Source: Candidatus Adiutrix sp.
GTDB lineage: Bacteria; Desulfobacterota; Desulfarculia; Adiutricales; Adiutricaceae
Length of the DNA stretch: 10,078 nt
Direction: 5' to 3'
NCBI GenBank assembly: GCA_031285975.1
Contig: JAITVE010000396.1
Location: 1-10,078 of the forward strand
Shown here in pieces: positions 3,375 through 10,078 of this stretch. The position numbers and the translations under genes were made by a program. Under the pieces are notes generated by a model. The model did not search any database. It saw only the letters and a list, made by a program, of their open reading frames with translations, and was not told the DNA's origin. Position 1 is the first letter of the stretch, and each line of letters starts with the position of its first letter.

Positions 3375-4202
3375 CTAGCCGGGCTGGGCATTGTGCAAGG
3401 CCCGGACGATAACGGCTTCGGCCATCTCCGGCCCCATGGCCAAGCGGCAGCCGTCCAACAGGACGATGACGGAGCCGGACTGGCCGCCTAAAATGCGCAG
3501 GCGGGAGCCGCGCCGCAGGCCCAGTTCGGTGAGGCGGTTTTTGAGCGTTTCGGAGCCGTTGAAGCTCACCACCACCACAGATTCGCCCACGGCCGTCCCG
3601 GACAGCGGCAGGCCCGACCGGCGGCGGCGGCGGCATTCGGGGCACAGGCCGTAGACGGTCAAATTGTGGCGCAGGTGGGTGAAACCTTCGTCGGCGGCAA
3701 TGGTCTCGATAAGGCCGTCCACGTCCGGGCGGTTGAATTCAACGGCCTGGCCGCAGTCGCTGCAAATGAGGTGGTCGTGGTGCAGGCCGGGGTGGGTGTG
3801 CTCATAGATGATGCGGCCGTCCTCGGCGGGCATCTTTTCCGCCAGGCCCAGGGCAGTGAAAAGTTCCAGGGCCCCGGCGGCTTTGTCGGGCGCGGCGTCA
3901 AAGCCCCGCTTTTTCAGAACGCGGCCGAACTCCGCCACGGTCAGGTGCGCGCCGGACGACAGGAAGGCCTCCAGCATCAACAGCGGCTCCATGGGGTTGG
4001 CATAGCCCAGGCCGCTTAAGAGGGCGGTAAAACTGCCCGCGTCCAGGGCCCGATCCATGGGGCGGCCGTGTTCGCCGGGCTGGGGGCCGAGATGGTGCTC
4101 GTCCCGCAAAAGCGGCAGGCCGGAGAGCCCGGGGCGCGGCCCCTTGCCCTCTATGAAAACGCGGCGCAGCCGCTGGGCCATCTCCGACAAAACGCCGCCC
4201 AT
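3375..4202 (-). CDS. Fur-family metalloregulator fused to a C-terminal FeoA domain
   Basis: This 275-aa protein has two recognisable parts. Residues about 55-192 form a Fur-like region: a winged-helix part (about 58-135), the signature HHDHLICSDCG (141-151) and zinc-type Cys pairs C147/C150 and C187/C190. Residues about 198-270 are a FeoA (SH3-like) domain with LKNRLTELGLRRGSRLRILG and a final strand AEAVIVRAL. A Arg-rich linker (RRRRR) joins them. The first 48 residues are an extension rich in Gly, Pro and His; Met49 is an alternative start with no better ribosome site. The start at 4202 directly follows the TGA of the upstream Cys-rich peptide gene, so coupled translation is likely. It is probably an iron-responsive regulator of ferrous iron uptake, but the usual recognition-helix Tyr/Arg appear replaced (AAG at 108-110), so DNA binding is not assured. 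FeoA fused to a DtxR-type regulator is known; FeoA fused to Fur seems rare to me. Confidence 0.88.
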   Translation of the reverse strand: MGGVLSEMAQRLRRVFIEGKGPRPGLSGLPLLRDEHHLGPQPGEHGRPMDRALDAGSFTALLSGLGYANPMEPLLMLEAFLSSGAHLTVAEFGRVLKKRGFDAAPDKAAGALELFTALGLAEKMPAEDGRIIYEHTHPGLHHDHLICSDCGQAVEFNRPDVDGLIETIAADEGFTHLRHNLTVYGLCPECRRRRRSGLPLSGTAVGESVVVVSFNGSETLKNRLTELGLRRGSRLRILGGQSGSVIVLLDGCRLAMGPEMAEAVIVRALHNAQPG

Positions 4203-4403: not shown

Positions 4404-4459
4404 ACCTCAAGCCTTTCCGAATCGCTCCGTTATTGCGACAGAGAAGCAATTTCAGTATA

Positions 4460-4488
4460 AATATAGACCTTCCCGCTCGCCAACGCAA
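4460..4488 (-). promoter_or_regulatory. Possible sigma70-type promoter for the Cys-rich peptide / Fur-FeoA operon
   Basis: On the minus strand, TATATT (4460-4465, five of six matches to the -10 consensus) lies 17 nt downstream of TTGCGT (4483-4488, three of six to the -35). The surrounding bases are AT-rich in an otherwise GC-rich region, and the site lies between the hsp20 terminator and the start at 4403. The -35 is weak, and no convincing 19-bp Fur box was found. Confidence 0.35.
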
Positions 4489-4561: not shown

Positions 4562-4972
4562 TTAATTCTCCGTTCGAATCTCAATCTTGCGGGGCTGGGC
4601 CGGGGCGGCGCGGGGCAGTTCCAGGGTCAGCACGCCGTCTTTGAGGGCGGCGGTGATGCCCTGCTGGTCGATGTTTTCGGCCAGGCTGAACTGGCGGTAA
4701 AAGCCGCCTTCCTCATATTCGCGGATCAGCGATTTGCGGCCCTCCGGGGAGGGAGTAAGCCGACCGCTGACGGTGAGGGTGTTCTCGGACAAGTCCACGG
4801 ACAAATCGCCGGGGGCCACGCCGGGCATATCGGCCACCAGCATCAGGCCCCGGTCGGTTTCCCAAATGTCCACCACCGGCACGAACAGGGGCCGGTCGCT
4901 GGTGTTTTCCGCCTGGCCCCGGGCCACTTCCTGTTTTTCGCGGACGTTCATATCCTGCAATTCTTCAGACAT
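4562..4972 (-). CDS. Hsp20 / alpha-crystallin small heat shock protein, second of the pair
   Basis: This 136-aa ATP-independent holdase chaperone binds unfolding proteins. The alpha-crystallin domain covers about residues 30-122, starting with VPVVDIWETDRGLMLVADMPG and ending with the conserved A-x-x-x-x-G-V-L pattern (AALKDGVLTLELP, 108-120). The C-terminal tail carries an I-x-I motif (IEI, 130-132), which in this family docks into the neighbouring dimer and drives oligomer assembly. The N-terminal arm is short and polar. The ATG at 4972 has AGGAGG 5 nt upstream; that site overlaps the stop of the other hsp20 gene, only 10 nt away, so the two are co-transcribed. A clear terminator follows. 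The overall length is typical of bacterial Hsp20. Confidence 0.95.
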   Translation of the reverse strand: MSEELQDMNVREKQEVARGQAENTSDRPLFVPVVDIWETDRGLMLVADMPGVAPGDLSVDLSENTLTVSGRLTPSPEGRKSLIREYEEGGFYRQFSLAENIDQQGITAALKDGVLTLELPRAAPAQPRKIEIRTEN

Positions 4973-4982
4973 AACGGCCTCC

Positions 4983-5450
4983 TTACTCGGCTTTCACGGA
5001 TACGCGGTGGGCCTTGGCCTCGGCGGATTTGGGCATGGTCACGGTGAGGACGCCGTTTTTGAAAACCGCGTCCACCCGGTCAGCCTCAACCTTGACCGGC
5101 AGGGTCAGGGTGCGGCGGAAGGCCCCGCTCTCCCGCTCCCGGCGGTGAAAATTCACCTCGGCTCCCGGCCCGTCCGAGCCCACCCGGCCGCGCAGGTTCA
5201 GGGTCTCGCCCTTGACCGAGACTTCCAGTTGCCCGGGGTCGGCGCCGGGCAGTTCGCAGGTCAGGTACAGCCGCTCATCGTCTTCACTGAGATTGATGAG
5301 GGGGAAAACCCCGAAATTTTTGCGAAGCTGCGAGGAGACGCTCCCGGCCAGGGTATTGTAGATGGTCTCCATATGGTCGCGCATCTTTTCCAGTTCCCAG
5401 AACGAGGGCAGGCCCCGTCCGCTCCTGGGCTGGAATCTGAATCTGGACAT
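4983..5450 (-). CDS. Hsp20 / alpha-crystallin small heat shock protein, first of the pair
   Basis: This 155-aa small heat shock protein has an N-terminal arm (about 1-48, including a helix around FWELEKMRDHMETIYNTLAG), an alpha-crystallin domain (about 49-141, from FPLINLSEDDERLYLTCELP to FKNGVLTVTMP) and a tail ending HRVSVKAE, in which VSV takes the place of the I-x-I motif. The start is set at the ATG at 5448-5450, 6 nt after GGAGG; a TTG two codons upstream is part of the ribosome site itself and cannot be the start. The sequence differs widely from its partner, as expected for the two-class hetero-pairs seen in many bacteria. Heat induction is likely, through the promoter and perhaps the leader described separately. 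Confidence 0.95.
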   Translation of the reverse strand: MSRFRFQPRSGRGLPSFWELEKMRDHMETIYNTLAGSVSSQLRKNFGVFPLINLSEDDERLYLTCELPGADPGQLEVSVKGETLNLRGRVGSDGPGAEVNFHRRERESGAFRRTLTLPVKVEADRVDAVFKNGVLTVTMPKSAEAKAHRVSVKAE

Positions 5451-5455
5451 ATTCA

Positions 5456-5462
5456 ACCTCCT
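5456..5462 (-). promoter_or_regulatory. Strong ribosome binding site of the first hsp20 gene, deciding its start
   Basis: AGGAGGT reads on the minus strand at 5462-5456 and is followed by TGAAT and the ATG at 5450. Its last T is the first base of the TTG at 5456, which rules out that TTG as a start. Confidence 0.85.
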
Positions 5463-5603: not shown

Positions 5604-6587
5604 ATGGTAAAATACACCCTGAAACGTTTATTGATGATGATACCGGCCCTGTTGGGCATCACCGTGGTCAGCTTCGCGGTCATGCACCTGGCCCCGGGGC
5701 GGCCCACGGACATGATGACCGACCTCAACCCCCAGGTGACCCTGGAGGCCAAGCAGCGGCTCATTGAATTATATGGGCTTGACCGCCCCCTCCACGTGCA
5801 GTATTTCGACTGGCTCGGCCGCCTGGCCCGGCTGGACTTTGGCCGCTCCTTCGCCCCCGACCGCCGCCCGGTGCTGGACAAAATCAGCGAACGCCTGCCC
5901 GTGACCCTGGCCCTGAACGTGGCCTCCCTGGCCATCATCCTCTGCGTCTCGCTGCCGGTGGGGGTCATTGCCGCCGTGCGGGCCGGGGGCCTGTTTGACC
6001 GGGCCACGACCGTGCTTTTTTTCATCGGCTTTGCCGCGCCCTCCTTCTGGCTGGCCCTCCTGGGGATGCGCTATTTCGGGGTGGAACTGGGCTGGCTGCC
6101 CATTTCCGGCCTCACCTCCCTGGACTACGACCAGATGAGCGCCCCAGGAAAACTGGCCGACCTGGCCCGCCACCTGGTCATGCCCCTGATAATCTCCACC
6201 ATCGGCGGCCTGGCCGGGCTGTCGCGCTACATGCGCTCCAACATGCTGGAAATCATCCGGCAGGACTACCTGACCACGGCCCGCGCCAAGGGCCTCCCGG
6301 AGCGGGTGGTCATCGCCAAGCACGCCCTGCGCAACGCCTTGCTGCCGGTCATCACCATCCTGGGCCTGTCGGTGCCGGGGCTCATCGGCGGCTCGGTCAT
6401 CATCGAATCCATCTACGCCATCCCCGGCCTGGGGCAGCTCTTTTACGGCGCGGTCATGAGCCGGGACTACCCCCTGGTCATGGGCGGGCTGGTCATCGGC
6501 GCGGTCTTAACCCTGCTGGGCAACCTCTTGGCCGACCTGGGCTACGCCTGGGCCGACCCCCGCGTCCGCGACGCGGCCTTTAAATAG
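5604..6587 (+). CDS. Peptide-type ABC transporter permease, DppB/OppB family
   Basis: This 327-aa inner-membrane permease subunit of a peptide/nickel-type ABC importer has the family's N-terminal pattern (MVKYTLKRLLMMIPALLG, then HLAPGRP), an LDFGRSF segment before the second membrane helix, and about six hydrophobic segments. The EAA loop that contacts the ATPase is at about 215-250, with DYLTTARAKG at 221-230 followed by HALRNALLP; ESIYAIPGLGQLF (268-280) is also typical. The ATG at 5604 gives the standard family N-terminus, but I see no good ribosome binding site before it. A MepA-like peptidase gene starts 10 nt after the stop, and the partner permease comes after that. The family is certain; di/oligopeptide, murein-peptide or other substrate cannot be told. 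No binding-protein or ATPase gene is in the window. Confidence 0.93.
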   Translation: MVKYTLKRLLMMIPALLGITVVSFAVMHLAPGRPTDMMTDLNPQVTLEAKQRLIELYGLDRPLHVQYFDWLGRLARLDFGRSFAPDRRPVLDKISERLPVTLALNVASLAIILCVSLPVGVIAAVRAGGLFDRATTVLFFIGFAAPSFWLALLGMRYFGVELGWLPISGLTSLDYDQMSAPGKLADLARHLVMPLIISTIGGLAGLSRYMRSNMLEIIRQDYLTTARAKGLPERVVIAKHALRNALLPVITILGLSVPGLIGGSVIIESIYAIPGLGQLFYGAVMSRDYPLVMGGLVIGAVLTLLGNLLADLGYAWADPRVRDAAFK

Positions 6588-6597
6588 GAACGCTCCG

Positions 6598-7353
6598 ATG
6601 AATAAAAATACCATCGCCAACGCGGACGCGAGTCCCCGAAAAAAATCCGCCCTGCGCACTCTGGGCCGCGCAGCATTGGGTTTCGTCGCCCTCATAGCTT
6701 TTGCGGCGCTTGCTCTTTCGGCCAAGCCGCTGTTTTCGGAATCACTGGATTTGAAAAAATATATCGTTGCCAAGGCCGACGCCTACCAGGCCCTGCCGGT
6801 CTCCGGGCCGAATTTCAAGGCCGCTTCGCGCTTTGCCCACGGCCTCGGGCGCTATTATCTGCGGGGCAGAACCGCCGCCGCCATCGTGGCCGCCTACGCG
6901 GAACTGGCCCGGACGCACCCAGATTACCACTATGTGTACGGCGAAATGGGCTGGAAGGGCGGCGGCCGTTTTCGCCCGCACCGCACCCACCGCCAGGGCC
7001 TGAGCGCCGACTTCATGACCCCGATGCTCAAAACAGGCCGCGACGGGAAAGCCGTTCCCGCACGCCCGTTCTATAACGCGCTGAACCTTTGGGGATACCG
7101 CATCCGCCTGGACGGCCAGGGCCGCTACAAAAACTATCAGCTTGACGCCAAAGCCATGATAGCCCACTTGGCGGCCCTGAAAAAAACCGCGCCCCGTTTC
7201 GGGCTGCGCGTGGAGCGGGTCATTTTTGATCCGCCGCTGTTGAAGCTCCTGCGGGCCGACCCGAGTTTCGCGCAGCTGCGCGGCCTGGCCTTCATGAAGA
7301 ATCAGGCCTGGTTCCCCCATGACGGCCACTACCATGTGGATTTTGCGCGGTGA
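6598..7353 (+). CDS. MepA-like (LAS / peptidase M74-type) murein endopeptidase, membrane-anchored
   Basis: This 251-aa protein has one N-terminal hydrophobic segment (about 24-42) after a Lys/Arg-containing start, so it is probably a membrane anchor or uncleaved signal with the enzyme in the periplasm. The catalytic part matches penicillin-insensitive murein endopeptidase MepA: GGGRFRPHRTHRQGLSADF holds H128, H131 and D138, and WFPHDGHYHVDF holds H244 and H246. The spacings H-x2-H, H-x6-D and H-x-H are the same as those I recall for E. coli MepA (His110, His113, Asp120, His209, His211), where His113, Asp120 and one late His bind zinc. Such enzymes cut D-Ala-mDAP cross-links in peptidoglycan. 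AGGAA lies 7 nt before the ATG and overlaps the end of the permease gene. The enclosing permeases suggest a link to wall-peptide release and uptake. An L,D- or D,D-carboxypeptidase activity is a possible alternative. Confidence 0.78.
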   Translation: MNKNTIANADASPRKKSALRTLGRAALGFVALIAFAALALSAKPLFSESLDLKKYIVAKADAYQALPVSGPNFKAASRFAHGLGRYYLRGRTAAAIVAAYAELARTHPDYHYVYGEMGWKGGGRFRPHRTHRQGLSADFMTPMLKTGRDGKAVPARPFYNALNLWGYRIRLDGQGRYKNYQLDAKAMIAHLAALKKTAPRFGLRVERVIFDPPLLKLLRADPSFAQLRGLAFMKNQAWFPHDGHYHVDFAR

Positions 7354-7398: not shown

Positions 7399-8229
7399 AT
7401 GAACCTGAAAATTTTTCTGAAACGCTTTGCCCGCAACCGCCTGGCCCTGGCCGGGGCGGGCCTGGTGCTGCTGCTGTTCCTGGTTTCCGGCGCGGCCCCC
7501 TGGCTGGCCCCGCACGACCCGGACAGGGTGGACATCCGCAATCGCCTCAAGCCGCCCAGCGGCGAATACATCCTGGGGACGGATTCCCTGGGGCGCGACG
7601 TCCTCTCCCGCCTCGTCTGGGGGGCCCGCGTCAGCCTCAAGGTCGGGCTGGTGGCCGTGGGCCTGGCCACGGCCATCGGGCTCCTTTTGGGCGCGGCCGC
7701 CGGGTATTACGGCGGGCTGACGGACGGCCTGATTATGCGCTTCTGCGACCTGATGCTCTGCTTCCCCAGCATGTTCCTCATCCTCGCGGTCATCGCCATC
7801 CTGGAGCCCTCCATCTGGAACGTCATGATCGTCATAGGCCTGACCAGCTGGATGGGCGTGGCCCGGCTGGTGCGGGCCGAGTTCATCAGCTTGAAGAACC
7901 GCGATTTCACCCTGGCCGCCCGCGCCCTGGGGGCCTCCGACGGCCGCATCATCCTGCGCCACCTGCTGCCCAACGCCCTGGCCCCGGTGCTGGTGGCCGC
8001 CACCCTGGGGGTGGCCGGGGCCATCCTCACTGAAAGCGCCCTTTCCTTCCTGGGACTGGGCGTGCAGCCCCCCACCGCCACCTGGGGAGCCATGCTGGCC
8101 GACGGCAAAGACTACCTCAGCCGCGCCTGGTGGCTCAGCCTCTACCCCGGCCTGGCCATCCTCCTGACCGTCCTGAGCTATAACCTCATGGGCGAAGGCC
8201 TGCGCGACGCCCTCGACCCGAGGCAATAA
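7399..8229 (+). CDS. Peptide-type ABC transporter permease, DppC/OppC family
   Basis: This 276-aa second permease subunit is the partner of the DppB-type protein encoded at 5604. It shows the family hallmark LGTDSLGRDVLSRL (59-72) just before the second membrane helix, the EAA loop DFTLAARALGASDGRIILRH (169-188) followed by LLPNALAPV, and the motif TESALSFLGLGVQPPTATWG (211-230). About six hydrophobic segments are present, and the length is typical of the shorter members. AGGT lies about 8 nt before the ATG, and the gap from the peptidase gene is 45 nt. In most dpp/opp operons the C permease directly follows B and is followed by two ATPase genes; here an endopeptidase gene intervenes and no ATPase follows, so the ATPases and binding protein must be encoded elsewhere if the system works. 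Confidence 0.94.
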   Translation: MNLKIFLKRFARNRLALAGAGLVLLLFLVSGAAPWLAPHDPDRVDIRNRLKPPSGEYILGTDSLGRDVLSRLVWGARVSLKVGLVAVGLATAIGLLLGAAAGYYGGLTDGLIMRFCDLMLCFPSMFLILAVIAILEPSIWNVMIVIGLTSWMGVARLVRAEFISLKNRDFTLAARALGASDGRIILRHLLPNALAPVLVAATLGVAGAILTESALSFLGLGVQPPTATWGAMLADGKDYLSRAWWLSLYPGLAILLTVLSYNLMGEGLRDALDPRQ

Positions 8230-8505: not shown

Positions 8506-8579
8506 AGGCCCGGCCACCGTTACAATAAATATGATGTGGACGGACGGCTCCCGCCGCTCCGATTAGGTGTTGACAAACG

Positions 8580-8607
8580 GCGGCGTCCAGGGGGGACGCC
8601 GCTTTTT
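8580..8607 (+). terminator. Strong intrinsic terminator upstream of pgm
   Basis: GCGGCGTCC (8580-8588) pairs perfectly with GGACGCCGC (8594-8602) around a 5-nt AGGGG loop, followed by TTTTT (8603-8607). It ends either the permease transcript or the small unit that starts near 8283. It sits only about 50 nt before the pgm start, and no clear promoter was found in between, so attenuation of pgm is possible. Confidence 0.9.
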
Positions 8608-8645
8608 GATAGCCCTCAGGGCTGACGCTTGCTTCACGCGGAACG

Positions 8646-8651
8646 AGGAGG
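8646..8651 (+). promoter_or_regulatory. Ribosome binding site of pgm
   Basis: AGGAGG lies 5 nt before the ATG at 8657 and fixes the start. A small hairpin (AGCCC-TCA-GGGCT, 8611-8623) lies between the terminator and this site. Confidence 0.85.
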
Positions 8652-8656
8652 TCTTT

Positions 8657-10078
8657 ATGGTGCATCCACTCGCGGGCCGGAAAGCCCCGGCTGAACAGCT
8701 CGTCAATCTGCCCCGGCTTCTGGCCGACTATTACACCGCCGAGGTCAAGGCCCCGGTGGCTTTCGGCACTTCCGGGCATCGCGGCTCGTCGTTCAGCGGC
8801 TCTTTCAACGAGGCCCACGCGGCGGCCATCGCCCAGGCGGTGGTGGAATACCGCCGCGGGCAGGGCCACGGCGGCCCCCTGTTCCTGGGCTACGATACCC
8901 ACGGCCTGAGCGAGGCCGCGTTCCGCACCATCGTGGAAGTCCTGGCCGCCTTTGAGGTGGAAACCGTCATCCACGACCGGGGGGAATTCACCCCCACCCC
9001 GGTGATCTCCTTCCTCATCATTGAGCACAACCGCCGCCACCCCCAGGCTTTGGCCGACGGCCTGATTATCACCCCCAGCCACAACCCGCCCGTGGACGGC
9101 GGCATCAAGTACAACCCGCCCCACGGCGGCCCGGCTGATGTGGACGTCACCGGCTGGATTGAAAAACGGGCTGGGGAACTGATGGCCGACGCGGCCTCCA
9201 TCAAGCGGCTGCCCTGGTTCAAGGCCAAAGGGGCCGGGACGGTCAAGGCCATGGATTTCATCACCCCCTTCGCCGAGGCCCTGGGGGAAGTGGTGGACAT
9301 GCCCGCCATCAAGGCCGCCGGGCTGCGGCTGGCCGCCGACCCCCTGGGGGGCTCCGGGGTGCATTTCTGGGAACCCATCGCCGAGCGCTGGGGCCTGAAC
9401 CTCACCGTGGTCAACAAGGCCGTGGACGCCTCCTTCTCCTTCATGACCTTAGACAGCGATGGCGTTATCCGTATGGACTGCTCCTCGCCCTATGCCATGG
9501 CCGGGCTCATTGAAATGGGCGGCCGCTTCGATTTGGCCTTCGGCAACGACCCCGACTTCGACCGCCACGGCATCGTCTCCGGCGGGGAACTGATGAACCC
9601 CAACCACTACCAGGCGGCGGCCATCGACTACCTGCTCAAGAACCGGCCCCAATGGCCGGGCAGCGCGGCGGTGGGCAAAACCCTGGTCTCCTCGTCCATC
9701 ATCGACCGGGTGGTGGAGGCCGGGGGCCGCACGCTCTACGAAACGCCGGTGGGCTTCAAATGGTTTGTTGATGGGCTGTCCTCAGGCAAGCTCGTCTTCG
9801 CCGGGGAAGAGAGCGCCGGGGCCACTTTTCTGAAAATGGACGGCTCCGCCTGGACTACCGACAAAGACGGCTTCTGCCTGACCCTTCTGGGGGCCGAGAT
9901 GATGGCCCGCACCGGCCGCTCCCCTTACGAACTGTATCAGTCGCTTACTGAGCGCTTTGGCCGCAGCGAGTATGGCCGCCTGGACACCGGCATAACCGAC
10001 CGCGAAAAAGCCGTTCTGAAAGCCGCCGACCCGGCCAAATTTATCGGCGCCCGCTGCGGCGGGCACAAAATCGCCGCT
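8657..10078 (+). CDS. pgm: Phosphoglucomutase (alpha-D-glucose phosphate-specific), 3' end outside window
   Basis: This enzyme interconverts glucose-1-phosphate and glucose-6-phosphate in the cytoplasm through a phosphoserine. The frame is open from the ATG at 8657 to the window edge, giving 474 residues; the E. coli-type enzyme is about 546, so roughly 70 are missing, from the C-terminal phosphate-binding domain. Visible motifs are FGTSGHRG (36-43), the catalytic loop TPSHNPP with the phosphorylated Ser at 141, followed by DGGIKYNPPHGGPAD (147-161) characteristic of this subfamily, the magnesium loop NDPDFDRHG with Asp 298, 300 and 302, and the sugar-binding GEESAG (383-388). AGGAGG lies 5 nt before the start. 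Together with the phosphorylase at the other end of the window this would complete glycogen breakdown to glucose-6-phosphate. No defect is seen in the visible part. Confidence 0.97.
   Translation, partial: MVHPLAGRKAPAEQLVNLPRLLADYYTAEVKAPVAFGTSGHRGSSFSGSFNEAHAAAIAQAVVEYRRGQGHGGPLFLGYDTHGLSEAAFRTIVEVLAAFEVETVIHDRGEFTPTPVISFLIIEHNRRHPQALADGLIITPSHNPPVDGGIKYNPPHGGPADVDVTGWIEKRAGELMADAASIKRLPWFKAKGAGTVKAMDFITPFAEALGEVVDMPAIKAAGLRLAADPLGGSGVHFWEPIAERWGLNLTVVNKAVDASFSFMTLDSDGVIRMDCSSPYAMAGLIEMGGRFDLAFGNDPDFDRHGIVSGGELMNPNHYQAAAIDYLLKNRPQWPGSAAVGKTLVSSSIIDRVVEAGGRTLYETPVGFKWFVDGLSSGKLVFAGEESAGATFLKMDGSAWTTDKDGFCLTLLGAEMMARTGRSPYELYQSLTERFGRSEYGRLDTGITDREKAVLKAADPAKFIGARCGGHKIAA

Follow-up and report, generated by a model that had tools for sequence, protein, structure and literature searches.

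The fusion gene and its surroundings

The window, by which we mean the whole 10,078-nucleotide stretch of DNA that was analysed, carries on its minus strand a gene for a 275-residue protein in which a FUR domain is followed by a FeoA domain (Table 1). A preliminary description of this DNA had reported a Fur-like domain with the signature HHDHLICSDCG and two CxxC pairs, running without a break into FeoA, and this account was borne out: the signature occupies residues 141-151, the cysteine pairs are C147/C150 and C187/C190, and the Pfam search that had been called for placed both FUR (51.9 bits; cut-off, 23.1) and FeoA (52.5 bits; cut-off, 23) above their cut-offs. The open reading frame occupies exactly positions 3375-4202 of the minus strand, and the plus-strand reading is interrupted by stops. 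The AlphaFold model (mean pLDDT 84.6) consists of a Fur fold and then an SH3-like FeoA fold, and its PDB matches are to Fur and FeoA, with DtxR-type regulators that bear a FeoA-like domain among the best. The parallel already drawn with the SH3/FeoA domain of DtxR-type regulators fits this combination of a Fur fold and a complete FeoA domain.

Two separate genes joined by a frameshift, or by an error of assembly, had been named as a finding that would overturn this view. Both possibilities are ruled out, because the two domains are shared by 38/38 of the first protein-search matches (the window's protein included) and by 68 of the 395 genomes sampled from the phylum; further, 65 loci outside the window's order each hold the fusion as a single frame (one of them, L227, cut by a contig end). 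The architecture is thus confirmed as genuine, in one continuous frame.

Directly 5' of the fusion, and on the same strand, lies a gene for a small Cys-rich protein whose stop codon abuts the ATG of the fusion. A counterpart adjoins the fusion in all eight loci of the window's order, where the PF12669 profile scores above its cut-off in four, below it in three (the window's included), and gives no match in one (L130). The scan for such genes flagged nine of 73 fusion loci; the ninth, L195, was dropped, as it is a 40-residue frame opposite the fur gene.

The ends of the protein vary among its relatives. A cationic amphipathic N-terminal helix was detected in 31 of 34 proteins from close relatives of the window's fusion, with a moment reached by no more than 5% of shuffles, a count that is flattered by choosing the best 18-residue stretch before shuffling; the window's own helix, with a shuffle fraction of 9.6%, falls outside the 31. 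Such a helix, modelled with low confidence, could contact a membrane or a phosphate backbone. Several relatives also have C-terminal tails rich in His and Cys, and the window's fusion is without one.

Table 1. Features of the window, with the evidence for each
Feature	Position	Strand	Basis and remarks
Fur-FeoA fusion protein, 275 aa	3375..4202	minus, start at 4202	ORF, Pfam, AlphaFold, PDB matches
FUR domain, residues 76-184	3651..3977	minus	Pfam profile; winged helix and dimer domain, metal ligands kept
FeoA (SH3-like) domain, residues 199-267	3402..3608	minus	Pfam, clamp residues, PDB matches
N-terminal helix, residues 3-17 (model)	4152..4196	minus	weakly amphipathic in the window; pLDDT ~50, low confidence
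Cys-rich single-TM protein, 66 aa	4203..4403	minus	PF12669-like (FeoB-associated), 21.1 bits, cut-off 27
sigma70-like promoter match	4454..4483	minus	consensus scan only, no proof of function; 5' of the two-gene unit
Two adjacent HSP20 genes	4562-5456	minus	Pfam; 5' of the fusion unit and on its strand
Oligopeptide ABC permease genes, flanking the murein endopeptidase-like gene	5604-6587, 7399-8229	plus	Pfam
Murein endopeptidase-like gene (PF03411)	6598-7353	plus	18.4 bits, below cut-off 25
Glucan phosphorylase, PilZ-domain protein and phosphoglucomutase genes	26-2155, 2183-2938, 8567-10078	plus	

Metal ligands, DNA-contact residues and the FeoA clamp

We aligned 73 fusions (the window's, seven others of its order, and 65 from a sample of the phylum) with E. 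coli Fur, whose numbering is used for residue positions, and with 27 ordinary Furs, 26 of them encoded beside a fusion and one elsewhere in the window's genome. Ten of the 13 ligand positions (33, 81, 88, 89, 90, 93, 96, 101, 133, and 138) are invariant in all 73 fusions, among them the hinge ligand His33 and the four structural cysteines; the remaining ligands are H125 (66 fusions), H87 (59), and E108 (57, with Asp in six more). In a larger set of 157 protein matches, 11 of the 13 positions are present in 157/157, H87 is found in 156, and position 108 is Glu in 124 and Asp in 33. Mean entropy over nine metal positions is 0.32 bits in the fusions, as against 0.48 in the 27 ordinary Furs. The window's fusion has the profile match, the fold, the regulatory metal ligands, and the structural cysteines of the Fur family. 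Separately, one metal site retained in the fusions is incomplete in the ordinary Furs: their position 89 is Cys (25) or Ser (two) and in none Asp, and only four of the 27 have Glu108.

The surface that reads DNA is a different matter. At positions 14, 16, 19, 54, 56, and 57, the window's fusion has A68, P70, P73, K107, A109, and G110, and so carries none of the residues (Lys/Arg14, Thr16, Tyr56, and Arg57) that we took to mark DNA contact in a Fur-family regulator. Across the 73 fusions, Tyr56 occurs in none, Arg57 in one, Thr16 in three, and Lys/Arg14 in four; position 57 is acidic (Glu or Asp) in 42, and the Tyr-Arg pair at 56-57 is found in 0/157 of the protein matches. By comparison, Arg14, Thr16, Tyr56, and Arg57 are each present in 27/27 of the ordinary Furs, and Tyr56, Thr16, and Arg19 in 80/80 of the Fur-family proteins from other organisms that served as a second control. 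Averaged over the six DNA-contact positions, entropy comes to 2.63 bits for the fusions and 0.04 for the ordinary Furs. Arg57 was dropped as a family-wide control, position 57 being Asn in 71 and Arg in nine of the 80 control proteins. Asn is the usual residue at this position in PerR.

The weight of these residues is indicated by mutants of Magnetospirillum gryphiswaldense Fur described in PMC4506495, in which DNA binding was absent with R57A, the signal was very weak with Y56A, and affinity for DNA was reduced with K15A; the roles of the residues are those given there, and the equivalence of Lys15 and Thr17 with E. coli positions 14 and 16 is our own, by alignment. Misalignment as a cause of the missing residues was ruled out for the window: H86 and E134 are 48 residues apart, as are His33 and Glu81 of E. 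coli Fur, so that the recognition helix (residues 105-117 in the model) aligns without a gap, and the rows of the alignment are gap-free across it. Net charge of the winged helix was dropped as an argument, since E. coli Fur (-3) is about as negative as the fusions (mean, -3.6; ordinary neighbours, +0.3) and the measure does not discriminate.

That the fusion family has lost the reading of the Fur box is well supported by these comparisons; from the same data we infer, as a further step, that DNA binding was lost altogether. Regulation of genes in the manner of Fur, which the preliminary description had implied, finds no support here, with the DNA-reading residues replaced in nearly all of the family and Tyr56 universal in both control sets.

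The fused FeoA domain has both the profile match and the SH3-like fold of its family, together with a hydrophobic clamp. The clamp positions, taken from Bacteroides fragilis FeoA, are L220, L224, L227, L254, and M256 in the window's fusion, and they are hydrophobic, with Ala counted, in 63, 73, 73, 72, and 72 of the 73 fusions, respectively. This clamp is the surface proposed for contact between FeoA and NFeoB, and in B. fragilis the GTP-bound form of FeoB is described as stabilised by FeoA (PMC8980893). Contact of the fusion with FeoB through FeoA, as first suggested from the letters of this DNA, is accordingly named here as a plausible reading, in view of the kept clamp and of a feoB gene downstream in 37 of 73 loci. 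The domain is unlikely to be a recent copy of the neighbouring feoA: among the 30 adjacent FeoA proteins, Pro occupies B. fragilis position 45 in 28 and Asp occupies position 48 in 29, and all 73 fused domains have a gap and Gly there. FeoA with an additional domain is mentioned in PMC8749426, and Fur is not named in that mention.

Distribution and gene neighbourhood

Complete fusions were found in eight of 41 genomes of the window's order: four of seven in its own genus, none of 30 in the rest of its family, and all four in two other families. Of the 395 genomes in the phylum sample, 69 have a match to the family profile at an E-value of 1e-40 or lower; 68 of these matches span FUR into FeoA (one, in G245, cut by a contig end), and that in G324 covers FUR only. 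With so strict a threshold, 68 of 395 is a lower bound, and the genomes concerned are spread over 28 family codes by a hand count. The architecture, a survey of which had also been recommended, is thus common in the phylum and not peculiar to the window's genome. When proteins were searched with the alignment of the family, 356 of the 8000 candidates scored reached an E-value of 1e-30 or lower, and both domains are present in 120/120 among the matches listed. In public sources, these proteins are mostly unnamed; where named, they are mostly called Fur family regulator or transcriptional repressor, and one is called FeoA domain-containing protein. Their organisms include Desulfobacterales, Deltaproteobacteria, Thermodesulfobacteriota, Candidatus Adiutrix, and, once, Pseudomonadota.

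A contig scan beyond the phylum, in which 80 of 110 relatives were kept, showed no fusion, though a pattern scan of this kind can miss records; the matches in those 80 end by query residue 204, except that in L040, which extends to 224. A tree of the FUR part, built by a quick method from 133 columns, separates the 73 fusions from its other sequences by a branch with SH-aLRT 93, in keeping with a single origin but not proof of one. Our literature search, from which subscription journals were mostly absent, returned no open-access title or abstract describing the combination of Fur and FeoA. FeoA/SH3 domains on metalloregulators are already known from the DtxR type, and the Fur-FeoA architecture itself is already in public databases.

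Where feoB adjoins the fusion, it does so in a single arrangement: in 37 of 73 loci it follows the fusion on the same strand, and in none is it upstream or on the opposite strand. A separate feoA accompanies the fusion in 30 loci, and the locus of G038 holds the complete set of fur, fusion, Cys-rich gene, feoA, and feoB. In the other 36 loci, the window's included, feoB was not found within the sequence at hand (mostly ~4 kb a side, shorter at contig ends). Eleven of these 36 have a nearby proC-like gene, all in one BLAST cluster, whose identity as pyrroline-5-carboxylate reductase comes from Pfam on the L193 member alone. Seven loci (L193, L195, L204, L207, L213, L217, and L226) share a divergent fur upstream and a proC-like gene nearby, with feoB absent within ~4 kb of the fusion.

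In the genome from which the window comes (2.45 Mb, 417 contigs, 78% complete), an ordinary feoA-feoB pair stands on a second contig, and an ordinary Fur is encoded on a third. Fragmentation is not the whole cause of such separation, given that ~177 kb lie between the fusion and feoAB in G002, whose main contig measures 4.48 Mb. The eight fusion genomes of the order have feoB in 8/8, a separate Fur in 8/8, and another FeoA domain in 7/8. G037 has its separate FeoA joined to FeoB in an 867-residue protein (L128 9832-12435), encoded downstream of the Fur-FeoA fusion. In G324, the FUR-only protein (L229 3977-4408; 142 bits with the fusion profile) is encoded directly upstream of feoB and has its DNA-contact residues intact (K14, T16, R19, Y56, and R57); it may resemble the ancestor of the fusion.

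A candidate sensor acting on FeoB

We consider that the fusion may be a Fur-derived cytosolic Fe2+ sensor that does not read the Fur box and acts instead on FeoB through its fused FeoA domain, and we give this reading, on the sequence evidence, a probability of about one half. Both domains, the metal ligands, the replaced DNA-contact residues, the FeoA clamp, and, at roughly half of the loci, a link to feo genes are observed. With the metal sites and the hinge kept and the DNA-reading face gone, the domain most likely moves something else, and a covalently attached FeoA with a feoB neighbour suggests FeoB as the target. We infer from this the loss of DNA binding, the binding to FeoB, and the gating by metal. 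The retained Fur sites would fill with Fe2+; filling would shift the winged helix relative to the dimer domain, by way of the hinge ligand His33; and this shift would alter binding of the FeoA domain to the G domain of FeoB, where the fused FeoA might compete with or replace the ordinary one. Import would then be tuned without transcription. Counting against FeoB as the target are the 36 loci without a nearby feoB, the window's own among them.

An alternative, which we think less likely, is a DNA-binding regulator of new specificity, in which other residues read another operator and the FeoA domain acts intramolecularly, as is proposed for the SH3 domain of DtxR, IdeR, and MntR. The fold is intact in the model, whose best structure matches include DtxR-type regulators carrying a FeoA-like domain. 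Further, Arg19, a phosphate contact, is retained in 46 of 73 fusions, and position 56 is Arg in 99 of the 157 protein matches (in 15 of the 73 loci, which are the more evenly drawn set, the 157 being dominated by close relatives); together, these residues make a new DNA contact possible in one large clade. Against re-targeting, positions 56 and 57 vary widely with no new fixed set, and position 57 is acidic in 42/73 fusions.

Less probable still is an antagonist or co-factor of Fur, whose dimer domain would pair with ordinary Fur, and poison or tune it, with FeoA as the link to FeoB. The structural cysteines are kept, and an ordinary fur lies near 26 of 73 fusions (17 upstream co-directional, nine upstream divergent); however, adjacent fur is missing in 23 of the 37 feoB-linked loci, and a long branch separates the FUR domains of the fusions from the neighbouring Furs. 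The least probable is a metal buffer or chaperone that passes Fe2+ to or from FeoB with no signalling, for which the near-invariant metal sites, the additional conserved histidines His82 (67/73) and His84 (66/73), the Cys/His-rich tails of several close relatives, and the Cys-rich membrane neighbour in the window's order might speak, but which would seem to need neither the hinge ligand His33 nor the whole winged helix that the fusions keep.

Returning to the FeoB-directed sensor, we would go further only tentatively, holding it a little short of even odds that a branch of the Fur family has moved off DNA and, evolving from Fur and FeoA, has become a feedback subunit of FeoB that is gated by metal and works post-translationally, gives many members of the phylum direct Fe2+ control, and is now annotated as a transcriptional repressor. 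If so, the switching off of FeoB at sufficient iron and the role of FeoA could be tested in one protein, many proteins of the phylum named Fur repressors would probably be misnamed, and direct control of the ferrous importer by Fe2+ would operate in many of its members.

Among known systems, the Fur family (PF01475; E. coli and M. gryphiswaldense Fur) shares with the fusion its fold, metal sites, structural Cys site, and dimer domain; the fusion differs in its replaced DNA-contact residues and C-terminal FeoA domain. FeoA (PF04023) likewise has the SH3-like fold, the RLxxMGL-type motif, and the hydrophobic clamp, but the fused domain is tethered to Fur, is without the A-P-x-x-D-P loop that adjacent FeoA proteins carry, and has Arg and Gly at B. 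fragilis positions 58 and 62. DtxR, IdeR, and MntR offer the same order of parts, a metal-sensing winged-helix protein and then a C-terminal FeoA-like domain, with DNA-binding and dimer domains of another type; no DtxR-type Pfam family matched the window's fusion at E up to 1, and the match to NCBIfam MntR was confined to residues 199-268, with 14.2 bits against a cut-off of 350. FeoC is a winged-helix protein, far smaller than the fusion, and its Pfam profile gave no match in the window's fusion at E up to 1. As the fusion would be, FeoC is described as an accessory protein of some Feo systems, with feoC downstream of feoAB (PMC8749426), whereas the fusion is upstream of feoB in 37/37 linked loci. 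Finally, FeoA-FeoB fusions of the B. fragilis type also tether FeoA to a protein of the Feo system, the partner there being, according to PMC8980893, FeoB itself.
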